A stretch of 64,000 nt of DNA. It comes from Phocaeicola coprocola DSM 17136 (GTDB taxonomy: Bacteria > Bacteroidota > Bacteroidia > Bacteroidales > Bacteroidaceae). Positions 23,062 through 32,331 of this stretch are shown piece by piece. Each line of letters begins with the position of its first letter. Positions within the stretch are counted from its first letter, which is position 1. Location: assembly GCF_000154845.1 (NCBI RefSeq), contig NZ_DS981460.1, positions 45,586 through 109,585 on the forward strand, read 5' to 3'. The position numbers were made by a program, and so were the translations under genes. The notes below the pieces were generated by a model. It searched no databases, had not been told where the DNA came from, and saw nothing but the letters and a program-made list of their open reading frames with translations.

Positions 23062-24225
23062 TTATTTTATAGCTATTGGAGTTTCCAAATCAATAATATT
23101 TAATGCACTTCCTCCTCCGTTTGCCAGACCATCCATACCATTAGGTGATGCATCTTTTACATAACATGTTCCTCCTGATTCAAACTGATCAGTTCCATTG
23201 AGCTTATAGTAAGCTGCCAGACCGTCTGAATTCGGATCAACGTTCAGCATGTTTTGTTTAATTTGGTTTTCTGTGCGTGCAACATTCCAAAGTCTTACTT
23301 CACTCATGTAACCATAGAATGGACGTTCTCCCCACATAAACCCGGCAACCTTACCGATGAAGAATCCTCCTGATCCTTCTGAAGCTAAGTCGAAACTTGG
23401 GGTATCCCATGTAGATTCAGCAGCTTTACTACCATTGATGTAAAGAACTGTTTTACCAGAAGGCTGATCATAAGTGAATGCTACGTGGTACCATTTACCT
23501 GTTTCAAATGCTTGAGTAGAATGATACTGTTTGGTTCCTGCAATCTGAATCCAATCATTATGACCATCTGGTAAAGCTGTGTCACCAATACGAAGAATCA
23601 AAATTCCTTCATTACCCATAATGGTATTATTGCTCAGCAGTTGATTAATATAGATAAGTGCTTCATAAGTTACAGACTTATATATTGTTCCACTAGCCAA
23701 AGGAATCTTAATGTGATTACTTTGGAACTGAGCAGCTTTCTTAATCTGTACGGGCTTGGTTATGACAAAGTAAAGAATGTCAGTTCCCGCAATAGCAGGG
23801 ATGGATGAAGATTGAATACATACAGGGAGCAGATAAGATTTACCTTCTTCTATATTTCCTAGATTTGAAAATTCTATAGGTACTTTTTCTGAGTAAATTG
23901 TTCCACTAGGTATGCTTGTTGTATTACTTCCTAATTTCACATTAGACGCATTAAGCATTTCATAGTTAGTCCCGTATTTCTTATTATATTCGTTTACTAC
24001 ATTCTGTCCTGCAATGCTATAGCATACTTCAACAGGAGAGGAGCATGCAGAAGAAACTCTGGATTGTAATTCATAAATGATAGGTTTATCATCTAGAACT
24101 TCAATGGTATGTTCTTTGCTTTCGAAGTAAACTTTTGCTTCCAGCAGGTCGCTTTCACTGTCATTGCAACTGTTCAGCAATACAGCTATGGTGCAAAACG
24201 CCAAATATTTTAATAGTTGTTTCAT
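23062..24225 (-). CDS. DUF1735 and LamG domain surface lipoprotein
   Basis: A 387-residue lipoprotein with a signal peptide and lipobox Cys20 (LLNSCND). Residues about 30-140 look like the DUF1735 domain common in Bacteroides SusCD loci (YSIAGQNVVNEYNKKYGTNY, then IPIEFSN-like strands). Residues about 165-385 form a LamG/concanavalin-type fold (WYHVAFTYDQPSGKTVLYIN, GYMSEVRLWNVARTENQIKQ). It probably binds glycan at the cell surface, in the place of SusE/SusF. It is the last gene of the locus, 24 bases after the GH18 gene. Confidence 0.86.
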   Translation of the reverse strand: MKQLLKYLAFCTIAVLLNSCNDSESDLLEAKVYFESKEHTIEVLDDKPIIYELQSRVSSACSSPVEVCYSIAGQNVVNEYNKKYGTNYEMLNASNVKLGSNTTSIPSGTIYSEKVPIEFSNLGNIEEGKSYLLPVCIQSSSIPAIAGTDILYFVITKPVQIKKAAQFQSNHIKIPLASGTIYKSVTYEALIYINQLLSNNTIMGNEGILILRIGDTALPDGHNDWIQIAGTKQYHSTQAFETGKWYHVAFTYDQPSGKTVLYINGSKAAESTWDTPSFDLASEGSGGFFIGKVAGFMWGERPFYGYMSEVRLWNVARTENQIKQNMLNVDPNSDGLAAYYKLNGTDQFESGGTCYVKDASPNGMDGLANGGGSALNIIDLETPIAIK

Positions 24226-24249
24226 ATCTTTAGAATTTCATGATTCGTA

Positions 24250-25347
24250 TTATTTTTTCCCTTGATTGGCTTTCCATTCGTTGAATACCTGTTGATTGAT
24301 TTGAATTGCCTGACGCATCCATTTATAATCGGGGGTATTGTCATAGTCATTGTCAAAACGATAGGCACCAACTCCTCCTTTATATCCTTCTGCTGGCATC
24401 CAGGCAGCTTGTTGTAATAGACGTCCTCCTGAAGTTGCATAAGATTCAAAGTTTTCTGTGATAATTAGTTTTTCTGGGATGTTCCCTGGAGAATACTGAT
24501 GAGGCGAAGAGCTTCCGTAAGATTGTGTTATCCAATAGTCTACATACTCTTCCATTTCAGGAGAAAAATATTTGATATCTCCGTCGATACATAATAACTT
24601 GTGTCCTTTGCCTTCTAGGTCACTTTTCGGACCGATATATTTACCCATTTCTTTAACCAAAAACTCAATAGTTGTTTGGTTGAGTGTTCCGTCTGAATCG
24701 TTAAAACCGTTTCTCGGCTCCCAGTCAATATCAAAGCCGTCCCATTCACTGACAAAAAGTGAATCACAAAGTGCTTTAGCGTATTTGGCCAAGGCTTGAT
24801 TCAATTCTTCCGTATTGTCGAAATTGTGCGATTTGAATCCCCAGAAATCCCAGCGTGCGTATTTTTTTGCTGCTGCAAGTTCTGAATCAGACCATCCTTC
24901 TTCGGCTGCTTGTTTTTCAATCTCATCGTAGATATATTCAGGAGTTCTGCCTTTTCCCAGGTGAGAAAGTAAGCTAACTTCCAGCAGTTTGATTCCTTTT
25001 ACTTTCTGTGCAAATTCTTTGTCTGCCTTCTGTGCTTCAGTGATTTCATATCTTCCCGGAGCACCACTCCACATGGAGATGATATCCATACTGTCGGGTA
25101 CTGAAGATAAGTAACCTTTTCTCATTACACCTGAAGGAGCCCAGTTTGAGAACCAGCCGAAAGCAACCGGACGTCCGTAGTTCTTAGCTGTTTCCTTATA
25201 GGCACGTAAGTTAGCGTAATATTCACTGTCTCCTAAAGTGTTATATCCACCGATGTGTTCTACTTCTATGTTTTCTACATCGGTACAAGAGGTTATCATT
25301 GCTCCCAATAAAGGTATGATGTATAATAATTTTTTTAGTGTTTTCAT
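24250..25347 (-). CDS. GH18 family lipoprotein (endo-beta-N-acetylglucosaminidase-like)
   Basis: A 365-residue lipoprotein (lipobox Cys21, MITSCTD). The catalytic GH18 signature DxxDxDxE is intact as DGFDIDWE (residues 203-210, Glu210 as the acid). Strands such as PVAFGWFSNWA and YVDYWITQSYG fit the GH18 barrel. Bacteroides enzymes of this type, for example BT3987 and EndoF relatives, cut the chitobiose core of N-glycans. Some SusCD-linked GH18 proteins are non-catalytic binding proteins, but here the motif is complete. It sits between the SusD-like and DUF1735 genes. Confidence 0.87.
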   Translation of the reverse strand: MKTLKKLLYIIPLLGAMITSCTDVENIEVEHIGGYNTLGDSEYYANLRAYKETAKNYGRPVAFGWFSNWAPSGVMRKGYLSSVPDSMDIISMWSGAPGRYEITEAQKADKEFAQKVKGIKLLEVSLLSHLGKGRTPEYIYDEIEKQAAEEGWSDSELAAAKKYARWDFWGFKSHNFDNTEELNQALAKYAKALCDSLFVSEWDGFDIDWEPRNGFNDSDGTLNQTTIEFLVKEMGKYIGPKSDLEGKGHKLLCIDGDIKYFSPEMEEYVDYWITQSYGSSSPHQYSPGNIPEKLIITENFESYATSGGRLLQQAAWMPAEGYKGGVGAYRFDNDYDNTPDYKWMRQAIQINQQVFNEWKANQGKK

Positions 25348-25374
25348 GTCTTTACTGTATTAATTATTCGGTTA

Positions 25375-26997
25375 TTATTTGCAGTCCCACCACAAGTGTG
25401 TACTAGGTAAGTCCTGTCCGTTGCTTAGCATTTTAACGGCTTCGTTATAAATCTTCTGTCCGTCAGCTGTTTGGTAGAAACTGATAGGATAAATCATTCG
25501 GCGAATACCTCCTTCTGTTGTAACTCCTTGGCTGCTACCTCTGTTTGCCATAACAGGGTTCAGTTTAGGATATCCGGTTCTTCTCCATTCTGTCCAGGCT
25601 TCTTGTCCGTTAGGGAAAAGAGCAATCCATTTCTGGATCATGATTTTTTCGAGTTTCTGTTCCGTATTACCTTCAAATTTTACGGTTGTGGTGCAAGGAG
25701 CAGCAAAACTACAAGAATAACTTCCACCAACTTCATGCTTGATCGGGGTTTTACCAGAATTCATGTAAGCATCTACGGCTGAGCTGATTCCGTTTTCCTG
25801 GAAAGACATTTCAATACCTTGCTTATACAAGTCTTCTGCATTTCCAAATTCACCGCCCCATATTAAAGCAGCTTCAGCTCGCAGGAAGTAGACTTCGGAA
25901 GCACGTAACCAGTAAGTTGGTGTAGCTGCTTGTATGTTAGGTTTAGAAAACATCTTATATTCATCATTCTTTCCATATAGATGTCCTGCAGGAACCGCCT
26001 GATACTGTTTCCCATCGAACGCTTCTTTTCCTTGTGTACTTTTAGAGTCTACTGGCAAGAAGTAAGCACTTAATCGAGGGTCTTCATATCCCATTAAGTA
26101 AGAGAACATAGACGAACCCATGCGAGATTCATCATATTGTTCAGACAACCAATAGATGTTGTTTCGGAATGTGTATCCGGCTCCTGTACTCATCTGTGCT
26201 TCATCGTCTTTGGCAGTCATGACACCAATGGAATGGTTTAATGCCTGTGAAACATATTGTTTCGATAAGGCTTCATCGGCGTAGCGGACACGCATAGCAA
26301 GACGGAGTAGCAGAGAATTTGCATATTTTACCCATTTGGTCGAGTTACCAGCATATACAACATCATATTCACTCATAACCTCTACACCATTTTCTGCCTT
26401 TTCTGTCAGGATTTCAATGGCTTCTGTCAGATCTTTAAATATAGCTGTATAAATATCTTTCTCGGAATCGAATGGGATATTCATGGTAGCATCGGCTGCA
26501 TGTGAATAAGGCATCGGACCGAAACATTCCAATGCTTTGTGCCAAGCTGAAATTTTCAGGATTTGTGCTAAGGCAAATACTTCAGGAGTATTGTTTTTCT
26601 CGGCTGCAGCTTTCAGCTTTTTCCATGGGTCAAGTGCGTTGGTATATGCACGTTTATAAGTTCCGGAAATCCAGCTGTCATTCAAGAAATAGGTAACGTT
26701 ACTGTTTCCGCCTCCCCATGTATTATTCTGTCCGAAGAAACCACTCCAGCAGTCAGCCGATAAGTGATAGTCTGTTTGATACTGATTGATAATGTCAGTA
26801 TCATCTGCCTGTGTTCCTACTGGAAATACTGTACGTTCGATAGTAGTGATTAAACCACCTACAGCAACTCCGTCCATGACTCCTTCTTCATCAGTCAGCT
26901 CAAATGGATTGGTGTTGATTTCTTCGTAATTGCATGATGCCAATAGTGACACAGCAAATACGCCTGCTATAAATTTATATTGGTTTATCTTTTTCAT
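25375..26997 (-). CDS. SusD/RagB-like glycan-binding lipoprotein
   Basis: A 540-residue lipoprotein with signal peptide and lipobox Cys22 (LLASCNYEE). The all-helical SusD fold is indicated by repeated TPR-like helices (AQILKISAWHKALECFGPMPY, WVKYANSLLLRLAMRVRYAD) and by its position just after susC. It forms the lid of the SusC transporter and binds substrate at the surface. The ATG at 26997 is preferred over a TTG two codons upstream. The susC stop lies 19 bases upstream. Confidence 0.92.
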   Translation of the reverse strand: MKKINQYKFIAGVFAVSLLASCNYEEINTNPFELTDEEGVMDGVAVGGLITTIERTVFPVGTQADDTDIINQYQTDYHLSADCWSGFFGQNNTWGGGNSNVTYFLNDSWISGTYKRAYTNALDPWKKLKAAAEKNNTPEVFALAQILKISAWHKALECFGPMPYSHAADATMNIPFDSEKDIYTAIFKDLTEAIEILTEKAENGVEVMSEYDVVYAGNSTKWVKYANSLLLRLAMRVRYADEALSKQYVSQALNHSIGVMTAKDDEAQMSTGAGYTFRNNIYWLSEQYDESRMGSSMFSYLMGYEDPRLSAYFLPVDSKSTQGKEAFDGKQYQAVPAGHLYGKNDEYKMFSKPNIQAATPTYWLRASEVYFLRAEAALIWGGEFGNAEDLYKQGIEMSFQENGISSAVDAYMNSGKTPIKHEVGGSYSCSFAAPCTTTVKFEGNTEQKLEKIMIQKWIALFPNGQEAWTEWRRTGYPKLNPVMANRGSSQGVTTEGGIRRMIYPISFYQTADGQKIYNEAVKMLSNGQDLPSTHLWWDCK

Positions 26998-27015
26998 AAT
27001 CAAAGGGTTTGTTTT

Positions 27016-30000
27016 TTATAGTTTAAATTTAATGCCAAAACCGAAGCTGCGTACGCTGGGTTGCATGAAATAATCATTACCTTGTCCGTAAGTGCTTGTT
27101 GACGGTGTTAGCTCAGGGTCAAAGGGAGCTTTGCAATATAACATCCATGGATTGTTAGCAATGAAAGAAACGGTAACATCTTTCAGTACATTGGCAAACC
27201 ATTTGTCTGGCATTGTATAACTGAATGTCATTTCTTGCAAGCGGATATTTGTTGCGCTGTACAGGTAGTATCCTGAAGTTTCATAACCTCCTGTACCAAT
27301 CATTTGGTAGTATGTCTTTGCATCTACCCGGCCTTGTCCTGGGAACAGAGCACCTCCGGCGTCACGAGCTTCTGCAGAACGTTTGGATACACCGAAACGG
27401 TCGAGGATAGCTTCGGTAGAAGAAGTAACCACTCCACCAAATCGTCCGTTGATTAAGAAGCTGAATCCAAATCCTTTATATGACAGGGCATTGTTCCATC
27501 CCATGTTAAAGTCTGGAGATGTCTTTCCTAAGTATACAGGCTCACCTCTTTCCAGACCGAAGGTTCCGTCACTTTTTACTTCAACATATCCCTGACTATC
27601 TTTCTTGAAGAAAGTGTTTGCATAAATATCGTGAATACTTCCACCTTCTTTCAGAATAACGCGGCCATTGTCTTTCAGTACTTCCGGGATGTTAATCGGA
27701 GCTTCCATCAAATCGGTATGATAGTCTTTCACCATTTCCTTAATCTCATTTATATTCTTTGAGAATGTAAATGTAGAAGAAACAGCCAGACCGTTTTTAA
27801 ACTTATCATTATAGCCGAAAGAAGCTTCCCAACCTCTATTTTCTACGTTACCTGCTTGCAGGTAAATCTTCTGATAACCGGTGAATTCCGGTAAATCTCC
27901 TAGGAATGTCTGGTTGTATGTATTCGATTTATAGTAAGTAACTTCTGCACTGAATTTGTTCCACAGGCGTAAGCTAACTCCCACTTCGTAAGATTTGGTG
28001 CGTTCAGCTTTAAAGTCAGTGAATGGATAAATATATGTCGGCGACGGAATACCTCCGACGATTGGAGTTGTTACTGTACCAGGAGTTAATCCAGAACGAG
28101 AAACTGGAGCACCAACTTCTGTATAAGAACCACGTACTTTCAAATAAGAAATAAATTCAGGAAGCTGTACCATTTCCGAAATAATACCAGACAAACCGAT
28201 AGACGGATAGAAGAATGATTCTTCGTTGGTATTTACCAGACGAGAGTTCCAGTCGTTACGTCCGGTCAAGGTTAAGTAAAGCATACTCTTCCATCCCAGT
28301 TCGACGTTGCCGAAAATAGCATGGTTACGGATACGGCTGTCACCGCCTTTTTCTGAAGTACGGCCGTTTGACGGGTCGATATTGGAAACAGCAAATTTGT
28401 TAGGAACTTTTAGTAAGGTTCCTTTATATCCTCTTTCCAATGCCCAATAATTGGAATAACTCCATCCAAGGTTGGCAGAAATATTAAAGTCTTTGATCTG
28501 CTTATTAATATTTACCATGAAGTCAGCATATTCCTGACGGTCATTGTAATTGCTATATTCGTAATGTCCTTTAGTACCTTCTGCAAAAACCTGGTCGGAA
28601 GATGCATAAATCTTACGTTCGAATTTTACATAAGTATCGTCCATTCTGTAACGTGCAGCCAGATTAATCCAGTCGGTTATCTTGTAAGTTAATCCTACAT
28701 TGAACATGTAGCGGCTCTTATTGTTGGTTGAAACGTTACGGAATGCGGTCCAGTATGGATTCTGCGAAGCATAAGTTGATTCTGCTATCGGCCAGTACTG
28801 AACGGGAATTTTACGGCTGTCGTCAAAGCGTTCGAAAGTTTTGATTTCTTCAAAGTTTTCTCCTCGTGGAAAGAGGTAGGCTGCCATAACCGGATTCCAG
28901 TATTGACCCTGCGAAACCATATTCTTGTCATCTTGCTTGATATACGATGCTCCTAAATCAAGTTGTAACTTGTCATTCAGGAAAGTTGAAGTATTACGGA
29001 TCGTAAAGTTCAAGCGGTTGTATGAGTTGTTGGGAACGATACCGTCAGAGTTGGTAGACGAGATAGAAGCAAACGTCTGGTTCTGTTTAGTACCGGTTGT
29101 TAAGGTCAATGAGTTGATAAAGTTAGTTCCTGTGTTGAAAAAATCTTTTTTAGGGTCATAATCAGAAGGAGTGGCGAGTTTTTCACCCCAGCTTTCATAC
29201 ATATCCTTTTTATTACCGTAAGTATTTTGGAATTCAGGAGTCATGTATGCTTTGCTGAATTCGGTAGAAGAAGAAAATGAAAGTTGCAATTTACCTTCTT
29301 TACCTTTTTTAGTGGTGATAAGGATCACACCGTTTGCTGCACTACTACCATACAATGCTGCTGCCGACGGACCGCTCAATACAGAGATACTTTCGATATC
29401 TTCAGGGTTGAAGTCGGCAATACCTTCAGTTCCGGCCTTTCCTTCACCCATGATACCACTGTCTGTATTTCCCATGTTTGTATTGAACAATGGAATACCG
29501 TCTACTACATAGAGTGCATTGTTATCACCTTCTATAGATTTTGCACCACGCATTACTACACGTGTAGCACCACCGACACCACTGGCACTCTTGTTGATGC
29601 TTACACCGGCAATTTTACCATTCAGTGAGTTTACGAAGTTAGCGTCTTTTACTCTTACAAGCTCTTCTGATTTTACTTGCTGAACATTGTATGACAACGC
29701 TTTTTCTGCACGTTTGATACCCAATGCTGTAACAACCACTTCGTCCAAGCGTTCTGTATCTTCTCGCATAGTAACATTGATTACACCTTTATCGGCCATA
29801 AATTCTTCAGATTTGTAACCGACATAAGAGAATTGCAGAATTGCATCAGGGCTTGAAACTGTGAGTGAATAATTACCGTCAAAATCTGTTATAGCGCCAT
29901 TACTGGTACCTTCTTCCTTTATCGTAGCACCGATAATTGGTTCACCGTTTGCATCGACAACCTTTCCAGATATATTCGTTGGCTGTTTTTTATCGGATTT

Positions 30001-30351
30001 TTTCTTGATTGGGGTAATAACAATCTTATTACCTGAAACTTTATAAGATAAGTTCTGTTTTGCCAGTTCACTTGTAAGTAGGTCTTTCAGTTCTTCATCT
30101 TTAACAGACAGAGAGATGCCTGTTTTACCGTTTACTTCTACATCTCTGTATGAGAAGCGGTAGGGAGTTTGTTTTTCAATAGCAGTAAAAAGTTCTTTTA
30201 CCGATGCGTTATTCAGGTTGAGGCTGACTTTTCCGGTTTGTGCATAACCACCGGTAAATGTAAACATACACAAAGATGCACATAAAAGGCAAATCTTACT
30301 ACGCTTTTTACTATCTTTGTGCAAATCAGTAAATTGATGTTTGATTTTCAT
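27016..30351 (-). CDS. SusC/RagA TonB-linked outer membrane transporter with an STN signalling domain
   Basis: A 1111-residue protein: signal peptide (to about residue 38), STN domain (KVSLNLNNASVKELFTAIE, about 40-115), carboxypeptidase-regulatory-like domain (NISGKVVDANGEPIIGATI, about 125-200), TonB box (DEVVVTALG), plug (about 210-330) and a 22-strand barrel ending FGIKFKL. The STN domain marks a transducing receptor that signals to a FecR-type anti-sigma factor, which is encoded directly upstream. The predicted substrate, from the GH18 neighbour, is an N-glycan or similar GlcNAc-containing glycan. The susD-like gene follows 18 bases downstream. Confidence 0.95.
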   Translation of the reverse strand: MKIKHQFTDLHKDSKKRSKICLLCASLCMFTFTGGYAQTGKVSLNLNNASVKELFTAIEKQTPYRFSYRDVEVNGKTGISLSVKDEELKDLLTSELAKQNLSYKVSGNKIVITPIKKKSDKKQPTNISGKVVDANGEPIIGATIKEEGTSNGAITDFDGNYSLTVSSPDAILQFSYVGYKSEEFMADKGVINVTMREDTERLDEVVVTALGIKRAEKALSYNVQQVKSEELVRVKDANFVNSLNGKIAGVSINKSASGVGGATRVVMRGAKSIEGDNNALYVVDGIPLFNTNMGNTDSGIMGEGKAGTEGIADFNPEDIESISVLSGPSAAALYGSSAANGVILITTKKGKEGKLQLSFSSSTEFSKAYMTPEFQNTYGNKKDMYESWGEKLATPSDYDPKKDFFNTGTNFINSLTLTTGTKQNQTFASISSTNSDGIVPNNSYNRLNFTIRNTSTFLNDKLQLDLGASYIKQDDKNMVSQGQYWNPVMAAYLFPRGENFEEIKTFERFDDSRKIPVQYWPIAESTYASQNPYWTAFRNVSTNNKSRYMFNVGLTYKITDWINLAARYRMDDTYVKFERKIYASSDQVFAEGTKGHYEYSNYNDRQEYADFMVNINKQIKDFNISANLGWSYSNYWALERGYKGTLLKVPNKFAVSNIDPSNGRTSEKGGDSRIRNHAIFGNVELGWKSMLYLTLTGRNDWNSRLVNTNEESFFYPSIGLSGIISEMVQLPEFISYLKVRGSYTEVGAPVSRSGLTPGTVTTPIVGGIPSPTYIYPFTDFKAERTKSYEVGVSLRLWNKFSAEVTYYKSNTYNQTFLGDLPEFTGYQKIYLQAGNVENRGWEASFGYNDKFKNGLAVSSTFTFSKNINEIKEMVKDYHTDLMEAPINIPEVLKDNGRVILKEGGSIHDIYANTFFKKDSQGYVEVKSDGTFGLERGEPVYLGKTSPDFNMGWNNALSYKGFGFSFLINGRFGGVVTSSTEAILDRFGVSKRSAEARDAGGALFPGQGRVDAKTYYQMIGTGGYETSGYYLYSATNIRLQEMTFSYTMPDKWFANVLKDVTVSFIANNPWMLYCKAPFDPELTPSTSTYGQGNDYFMQPSVRSFGFGIKFKL

Positions 30352-30369
30352 AAGTACGTAATAAATTTA
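30340..30369 (+). promoter_or_regulatory. Candidate promoter of the antisense RNA
   Basis: TTTG at 30340-30343, an 18-base spacer and TAAATTTA at 30362-30369 (consensus TAnnTTTG, last base mismatched). It overlaps the susC start codon region on the opposite strand. Confidence 0.35.
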
Positions 30370-30375
30370 GGTTTA

Positions 30376-30465
30376 AAGTTCGGTTTTACTATGCGCCAAC
30401 ATAGTTTTACTTATGGACTGAGCCATTTCCCCGGATGATTGCCGATTGTCCGGGGATGTTTTTTT
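30376..30465 (+). ncRNA. Candidate antisense small RNA across the susC leader (DonS-like)
   Basis: Only minus-strand genes flank this region, yet a GC stem CCCCGGA/TCCGGGG (30429-30435 with 30449-30455) is followed by seven T residues on the plus strand, a terminator facing fecR. Upstream on the plus strand lie TTTG (30340-30343), 18 bases, and TAAATTTA (30362-30369), one base off the TAnnTTTG box. The RNA of about 90 bases would hold a 6-bp hairpin with the loop CGCCAA (30388-30405) and be complementary to the susC 5' leader. Bacteroides fragilis DonS is a known cis-antisense repressor of an N-glycan locus with the same gene order; assignment here is inference. Confidence 0.45.
30429..30465 (+). 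terminator. Plus-strand terminator in the fecR-susC gap
   Basis: A 7-bp GC-rich stem with a 13-base loop, then T7 at 30459-30465. On the minus strand, where both neighbours are transcribed, no T-run follows, so it does not separate fecR from susC. Confidence 0.65.
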
Positions 30466-30517
30466 CATGTTTTCATCTGTCTTTTCATAGTTTTAAGGTT
30501 AATATTTAAATTAGTTG

Positions 30518-31510
30518 TTATTCTATGGTTATGGTTTCTTCATCCATTGTGTATTCAAATCCGTAGTGTATTTTCAACACATTCAGAACGCTTCTTATAT
30601 TTTCATCATTAAAAGAACCTGTATACACATCCTGTAATATATTTTTGTTCTTTATGTTGAAAGTTACTCCGAATTTACGTTCCAGACATTGGAATACATC
30701 TTTCATCTTCTCATGTCGGAAAGTAAGCTCTTTGGTCAGCCATGCTGTTTCCATTTTATTTGAAGTTTCTTCAAGGCTCAATAACCCTGTTCGTTTATCG
30801 TATATCACTTTCTGGTTCGGCTTTACATTCAATGTATTATGAGCGGGATCTTTTGTTGTAACATTGACACTTCCTTCTACAAGAGCCATTTCAACAAAAT
30901 TTTTGTGCTCATACGCATATACATTAAATGTTGTTCCTGTTACTGTAATATCCATTACTTCAGTGCCTACAATGAACTGTTTCTCTGTATTCTTTTTAAC
31001 TTCAAAATATCCTTCACCCGACAATTCTACCTTACGGTTATCACGTCCGAAATCCTGTTTGTAGGACAGTGATGATTTTGCATTCAGATGTACAAGAGTT
31101 CCATCGGGCAATGTCACCAATGAAGTTCCATGTTCACCTGAGTTTATGGTTATATTTTGCTGAGCAAGATATTCAATATCTTTATGCTGAGTGTAGTATA
31201 AAACACTGATGCCACATGATAGTATCAAAAGAATGGATGCTGCTATTTGTAACCAATATTTTTGCACCTTTATGAATGGCGTTATGTGTCTTTGCTTGTT
31301 CAGTTTTCTATACAGAGAGTTTATTTTATCTTGTGATAAAGGCTCATAGCTGTTGAATTTATCCCATTCGTCAGAAAACAGAAACTCTAAATCAGCTTCA
31401 GATGACTGGTTTATCTTTGCCGATAACTCTTTAAATTCCTCAGAAGATATAGCTCCCGAACGGAATTTATCTAATAAATCTTTTACCTTGTTCTGTATGT
31501 TTGTGTCCAT
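30518..31510 (-). CDS. FecR-family anti-sigma factor
   Basis: A 330-residue inner-membrane protein. The cytoplasmic N-terminus (about 1-85) should hold the sigma factor, one membrane helix follows (IAASILLILSCGISVLYY, about 95-113), then the periplasmic FecR domain (GEHGTSLVTLPDGTLVHLNA, LSGEGYFEVKKN) and the C-terminal STN-like region (DVFQCLERKFGVTFNI). It receives the signal from the STN domain of the SusC protein. The start at 31510 is preferred over a non-ATG extension to 31549. The sigma gene ends 82 bases upstream, and the susC start lies 166 bases downstream. Confidence 0.92.
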   Translation of the reverse strand: MDTNIQNKVKDLLDKFRSGAISSEEFKELSAKINQSSEADLEFLFSDEWDKFNSYEPLSQDKINSLYRKLNKQRHITPFIKVQKYWLQIAASILLILSCGISVLYYTQHKDIEYLAQQNITINSGEHGTSLVTLPDGTLVHLNAKSSLSYKQDFGRDNRKVELSGEGYFEVKKNTEKQFIVGTEVMDITVTGTTFNVYAYEHKNFVEMALVEGSVNVTTKDPAHNTLNVKPNQKVIYDKRTGLLSLEETSNKMETAWLTKELTFRHEKMKDVFQCLERKFGVTFNIKNKNILQDVYTGSFNDENIRSVLNVLKIHYGFEYTMDEETITIE

Positions 31511-31592
31511 AAAACTATTACCTTGTTTATTGGTAATATCCACAAACACGTAAAATATAACATGTATATTTCTATGTTAGAAAACATAAAAA

Positions 31593-32168
31593 TTAGAAAT
31601 GGCTTAAAAAAAGGAGTAATATGAAAGAATATTGCTGAAGTTCGGTTCGTATTATTTTTAAGGCCGTTGATAATTGGTTACGTATTACTTGCTCTTTTAT
31701 GCATAGTTGCTCTGCAATTTCTGCAACAGATAAATTTTGTTCTTTGTTTAGTTCAAAAATCTCACGTTGGCGTGGAGTAAGTTTTTCTTTAGCTTGTTTT
31801 AGTGCTTTGCAGAACTGATCGAAGTCTATTTGTTTTTCAGCTTCATCTCCTGAAGTTCGTATGTTGTCATTATATTCTATAAACTCCTCCATTGAGGTGT
31901 TATTTAACTGTCGGCGTAACTCCTTAAGTAATAAATGATAAGCAATTGTAAACAGATAAGCTTTGAATGATGACTCGGCATCTAGTTTTTCTCGGTTAAT
32001 CCATATGCGATAGAATGTTTCCTGTACGACATCATCTGTTGTTTCTTCCGATTTTAAGTATTGATATACAAATTGATATAGCCTTGATACCCACATTTCG
32101 TACAAGGATCGGTAGGCTTTTTCGGAACCGGATTTTACAGATAATATTAATCTTTTTTCATCTATCAT
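31593..32168 (-). CDS. ECF-type RNA polymerase sigma factor (Bacteroidetes FecI-like)
   Basis: A 191-residue sigma-70 family protein with region 2 (AYRSLYEMWVSRLYQFVYQY, DDVVQETFYRIW) and region 4 (LTPRQREIFELNKEQNLSVAEIAEQ). A C-terminal hydrophobic tail (SFILLLFLSHF) is short and probably not a membrane anchor. It is expected to drive the SusCD locus when released by the FecR protein. A -7-like box on the minus strand lies at 32222-32215. Confidence 0.94.
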   Translation of the reverse strand: MIDEKRLILSVKSGSEKAYRSLYEMWVSRLYQFVYQYLKSEETTDDVVQETFYRIWINREKLDAESSFKAYLFTIAYHLLLKELRRQLNNTSMEEFIEYNDNIRTSGDEAEKQIDFDQFCKALKQAKEKLTPRQREIFELNKEQNLSVAEIAEQLCIKEQVIRNQLSTALKIIRTELQQYSFILLLFLSHF

Positions 32169-32214
32169 ATATCATATAAGGTTAAGAACCGTCTATTTTT
32201 GTGCTATAAATATG

Positions 32215-32222
32215 CAAATTTA
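32215..32222 (-). promoter_or_regulatory. Candidate -7 box of the ECF sigma factor gene
   Basis: Minus-strand TAAATTTG, an exact TAnnTTTG, 46 bases before the sigma start. No convincing -33 element was found. Confidence 0.4.
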
Positions 32223-32331
32223 ATATTTTCTTTTATTAGTTGAACATATTGGTTGGTTATAGTTGGTGGTATGTGCAAATGTTTTTTGAAGCATTTATTG
32301 TTTATGTTGTTGCAAGACCTGATAATGGTTG

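Follow-up and report, generated by a model that had tools for sequence, protein, structure and literature searches.

What role a terminator-like hairpin may have at the junction of fecR and susC, on the strand opposite to both genes, is the question raised by a PUL of Phocaeicola coprocola DSM 17136. The window, i.e. the whole stretch of 64,000 nucleotides analysed here (contig NZ_DS981460.1, positions 45,586 to 109,585), carries on its minus strand genes for an ECF sigma factor (31593-32168; Pfam Sigma70_r2 and Sigma70_r4_2), a FecR anti-sigma factor (30518-31549; FecR and FecR_C) and an STN-type SusC (27016-30351; STN, CarbopepD_reg_2, Plug and TonB_dep_Rec), followed by susD, a GH18 gene and a BT_3987-N/LamG gene. 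The Pfam assignments agree with the order from sigma factor to GH18 given in the original prediction, which had proposed a DonS-like antisense RNA over the susC leader. fecR and susC are separated by 166 bases, and opposite this leader the plus strand holds a hairpin of 13 pairs with a 3-nt loop (30428-30456) and a T7 run (30459-30465), which together form the putative intrinsic terminator of an antisense RNA targeting susC (30428-30465). The hairpin with its T7 tail is thus where it had been described, and, as had also been argued, it is not the terminator of fecR, the T-run being on the wrong strand. It is the sole terminator-like site in 29800-31000, a number which by itself does not exceed chance expectation (1, against a shuffle mean of 0.6, sd 0.8). 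Rfam at gathering level found six tRNAs and no other family in the whole window; below threshold, the best matches in 30240-30560 were NsiR1 (E 0.49) and FopS (E 2), both far under their cut-offs.

Excerpts of the published work describe PUL antisense RNAs that are divergent to susC, and DonS as a repressor of its susC locus (PMC7366714, PMC10994844); RNAs of the DonS kind are reported there to measure 78-128 nt (PMC7366714). Ten such RNAs, later 32, were reported from B. thetaiotaomicron, some of them confirmed by northern blot, with both negative and positive correlations between antisense RNA and susC (PMC7366714, PMC10994844). Of the cis-antisense RNAs of that species, 52% are reported to have a sigma-ABfr promoter (PMC7366714). 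FopS sRNAs, as described in part of another report, block translation initiation of a susC mRNA (PMC11697453).

The extent of an RNA ending at the hairpin depends on where its promoter lies. Promoters in Bacteroidota have a -7 box with the consensus TAnnTTTG. Only one such box, TATCTTTG at 30312-30319, is present on the plus strand of 30240-30530, inside susC codons 11-14 and ~110 bases ahead of the hairpin. No clear -33 element was found for it by eye, and a scan for sigma70-type promoters, which has low weight because Bacteroidota promoters differ, gave no plus-strand promoter between 29976 and the hairpin. The original prediction had placed the promoter 60-90 bases upstream of the hairpin and expected an RNA of about 90 bases complementary to the leader. 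Neither figure held: with the box inside susC, the predicted RNA (30326-30466, plus strand, its 5' end placed ~7 bases past the box) is ~140 nt rather than ~90 nt, and it overlaps the start codon and ~25 coding bases as well as the susC leader. The only near-match to a box at the distance proposed earlier, TAAATTTA at 30362-30369, was rejected, as relatives do not keep it when their alignment is inspected by eye. Folding of the plus-strand RNA (30326-30466) gave z = -2.95, and none of 200 shuffles folded as well; the sense strand gave z = -1.59, with 15 of 200 shuffles as good. Within the leader is an inverted repeat, ACTATG-N6-CATAGT (30388-30405, 6-pair stem), of which five pairs are invariant across six loci and the sixth is broken in one, with a variable loop; it might, as an idea only, form a first-contact loop between sense and antisense RNAs.

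Related loci were sought at the level of DNA and of RNA structure. A DNA search with 30290-30530 against 61 genomes of the genus returned five good non-self matches (L032-L036; E 7e-18 to 5e-6), all of them at sigma-FecR-SusC junctions whose FecR is 47-57% identical to that of the window. A covariance model was then built from the 3' part of the RNA, with the promoter left out, and run on two overlapping sets, the 61 genomes of the genus and 301 of the family; model searches over more than 40 genomes use stricter filters, so weak members may be missed. Nine loci scored at least 61 bits, namely the window, the five earlier matches and three held-out loci (G023, G061 and G092, the last from another genus than the window's), and all nine, including the held-out ones, sit at sigma-FecR-SusC junctions. 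The 28 weaker hits were all below 38 bits, and tblastn did not find the window's sigma factor, FecR or SusC beside them (~1.5 kb on each side where the contig allowed).

Loss of the hairpin and promoter from close relatives had been named beforehand as evidence against an antisense RNA; the related loci largely retain both. The TAnnTTTG box is exact in eight of the nine loci, including two of the three held-out ones, and L105 has TATCTTTA; the nine are interrelated, and are not independent tests. Draws of synonymous codons, weighted by the codon usage of the window, produced the box at rates of 3-16% per locus. The box of L128 is intact in another reading frame. The plus-strand terminator retains its 13-pair stem in the six loci aligned, with one gap in one sequence and no mismatch; three pairs have changes on both sides, and several are retained as G-U. 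Read on the minus strand, the same six loci form only seven stem pairs, one of which is broken in 2/6. These counts were taken from two later, corrected alignments, the two first ones having misplaced the middle of two sequences. Judged from the aligned sequences, selection acts on the fold of the antisense RNA, since 13 pairs are kept on the plus strand against seven on the minus strand. One family locus (L094, also L033, in G082) encodes a SusC with an in-frame stop near the end of the signal peptide, which would reflect either a defective gene or a mistake in the assembly, while the locus retains its box and terminator.

Immediately past the T-run lies a second conserved motif, ATGAARACATR, which occurs at all nine family junctions, at 2 of 44 others and only once in the window. 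Further upstream of it, TTAAC was recognized by eye in seven of the nine family loci. In the window, the two elements are TTAACCT (30502-30496) and ATGAAAACATG (30476-30466) on the minus strand, and this region (30466-30502) is a candidate promoter of susC, probably used by the cognate ECF sigma factor. With a sense promoter just past the T-run, the antisense RNA would cover the entire sense leader.

To place the window among its kind, we scanned FecR-SusC junctions of Phocaeicola and of further genera in the same family for a TAnnTTTG box followed by an intrinsic terminator within ~200 nt. The sample combined the top-scoring FecR_C places returned, eight related loci found through the leader and 40 hand-picked places; 76 loci yielded 60 junctions and the further 40 yielded 38. 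The resulting 98 junctions comprised 53 with a gap of 120-399 nt, 41 with a gap below 100 nt and four that were excluded (100-119 nt, or 400 nt and more). At the long-gap junctions, the promoter-terminator pair was present on the antisense strand in 33/53, on the sense strand in 0/53 and in shuffled sequences in 1/530, counted over rows that are not independent, some genomes being repeated and some loci being near-duplicates. The antisense pairs were found in 8/9 loci of the window's family and in 25/44 other junctions. Since 20 of the 53 have no antisense pair, susC genes of the same type can do without one. A long gap is not required either, as 7/41 of the short-gap controls have the antisense pair (0/41 on the sense strand), although some start codons there are probably miscalled.

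Counted from the start codon, the antisense boxes fall into three classes at nearly fixed positions: 14 lie at the ATG, 12 lie 61-63 nt upstream of it and 8 lie 39-44 nt inside the coding sequence. Seven of the eight boxes in the last class come from the window's family; a further member, L033, whose start was set by hand, is counted elsewhere. Boxes of the most frequent class share bases with the complement of the ATG. The predicted RNAs are 132-147 nt long in the window's family and 77-130 nt outside it, with one alternative of 61 nt; the lengths outside the family come near the 78-128 nt known for the DonS kind (PMC7366714). Outside the family, L221 (G061:C58) has three TAnnTTTG boxes in the susC coding sequence upstream of one antisense terminator; the RNA there may span the AUG, a geometry which would then not be exclusive to the window's family.

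Compared with the known systems, the predicted RNA is most readily set beside the DonS kind. Both are short RNAs lying opposite, and divergent to, the leader of a PUL susC, as far as sequence alone can tell for the window, and both have a promoter and an intrinsic terminator of their own, here the TAnnTTTG box and the hairpin. The differences lie in the length, predicted at ~140 nt (132-147 nt across the family) where 78-128 nt is reported, in the start inside the susC coding sequence, from which the RNA spans the AUG (a comparison with DonS by description), and in the surrounding cassette, which is not closely related to those of nine STN-type GH18 loci. As its length falls outside 78-128 nt, we class the window RNA as a variant and not as DonS. 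The core of the original prediction, a DonS-like antisense RNA over the susC leader, finds good support in the conservation and the survey, and its promoter position and RNA length are replaced. FopS (Rfam RF04319) resembles the window RNA as a small RNA at the translation start of susC, where the latter would also act. FopS RNAs, unlike it, mostly hit several mRNAs through a shared seed, and the FopS match in 30240-30560 is not significant (17.9 bits against a cut-off of 56, E = 2). In its protein parts the locus is no different from other ECF sigma/FecR/STN-SusC signalling loci, all three components being present in order; what is added is the layer of antisense RNA, predicted in 33 of the 53 long-gap junctions.

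The window's locus appears to be a mosaic. Its control cassette, consisting of the sigma factor, FecR, the leader with the antisense RNA and the SusC N-terminus with STN (29980-32232, minus strand, lower limit approximate), has 61-63% DNA identity to the control regions of loci whose SusC bodies are unrelated, and the matches fade from ~29730 to 29275. Compared with the cassette-sharing loci (four plus three), the STN part is 56-65% identical and the SusC body 21-27%. The locus body, from SusC codon ~124 through SusD, GH18 and the BT_3987-N/LamG protein (23062-29980, minus strand), was delimited by DNA identity to Phocaeicola faecicola L065, which is 70% over 7 kb. The SusC of L065 is without the STN part, and L065 has no adjacent sigma or FecR gene and no cassette. 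Identity of SusC proved a poor guide to related leaders; the best non-self match (84%, L002, on a contig shared with L065) is without the cassette. The sequences point to a recombination near 29980.

A further survey covered 28 loci with related GH18 genes, several of them near-duplicates. Nine, from Bacteroides and other genera, have an STN-type SusC and a nearby FecR, and five of these nine carry the antisense pair. The SusC of the other 19 is STN-less; the antisense pair was present in 0/19, and tblastn with the window's proteins found no FecR or sigma factor by them. The sense-strand pair occurred in 1/28 (L065). In the nine STN-type loci, the STN is 21-30% identical to the window's and the SusC body 47-83%, which sets the control region of the window apart from theirs. 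On the evidence of these comparisons, the antisense RNA is linked to the control cassette, not to the enzymes. A broader reading, to which we give an even chance, is that the antisense RNA belongs as an integral component to a transferable cassette (ECF sigma, FecR, leader and STN) exchanged among polysaccharide loci, with the break falling after STN, so that the repressor would accompany the sensor instead of the transporter; in the lineage of the window it would have been extended over the start codon, where it could block translation directly.

We consider it likely that the window encodes a cis-antisense RNA of ~140 nt, made from a housekeeping-type promoter inside the susC frame and ending at the hairpin beside the susC promoter, which by pairing with the susC leader, start codon and first codons would keep the SusCD/GH18 operon low when no ligand is present. 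Convergent transcription across ~150 bp may add to the repression. When SusC binds its glycan, presumably of the N-glycan type given the GH18 family, the STN part would signal via FecR, the ECF sigma factor would be freed, and sense transcription would outrun the antisense RNA. The box, the terminator, their strand, conservation and placement are shown computationally, and to these the model adds transcription, repression and the signalling order, which we infer.

The RNA may be made and yet act mainly through collision of polymerases, or even aid the expression of susC, instead of pairing with the mRNA where the ribosome binds. The box at 30312-30319 does converge on the putative promoter of susC at 30466-30502, ~150 bp away, and positive correlations between antisense RNAs and susC are among those reported from B. 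thetaiotaomicron (PMC10994844), but relatives preserve both the stem of the terminator and the overlap with the AUG, which is beyond what interference alone needs, and we regard such a mode of action as unlikely. Antisense transcription could also be functionless noise from a chance TAnnTTTG in AT-rich DNA, in line with the statement, in the part of the source consulted, that many antisense starts are possibly spurious (PMC7366714). The pair rate of 33/53 against 0/53 and 1/530, the fixed positions of the boxes and the compensatory changes in the stem make this quite improbable.

In a third reading there is no dedicated small RNA, and the hairpin either belongs to the leader of the susC mRNA or serves as a terminator against stray transcription into fecR antisense. 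A shorter stem does form on the sense strand, with 8 pairs in the window, but its upper part is lost in relatives, which leaves the seven pairs described above, and the T-run follows the stem on the plus strand only, with a dedicated box upstream in eight of the nine loci; such an origin is barely credible. The reading we retain, that of a repressing antisense RNA, is consistent with a conserved PUL-associated cis-antisense RNA gene of a known kind, an assignment that the sequence comparisons support well; the gene is predicted in a longer form that spans the start codon, and would sit in a portable control cassette.

A literature search, with most subscription journals outside its scope, turned up no description of RNAs of this type from Phocaeicola, nor of their being exchanged together with a control cassette, and functional work on this class of PUL antisense RNAs has been called for (PMC10994844). 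The nine related loci, with their natural variants of box, stem and loop, provide material to separate pairing at the ribosome site from promoter interference. If the proposal is true, sigma/FecR switching and antisense repression would be joined as one co-inherited module in the sugar use of Bacteroidota.
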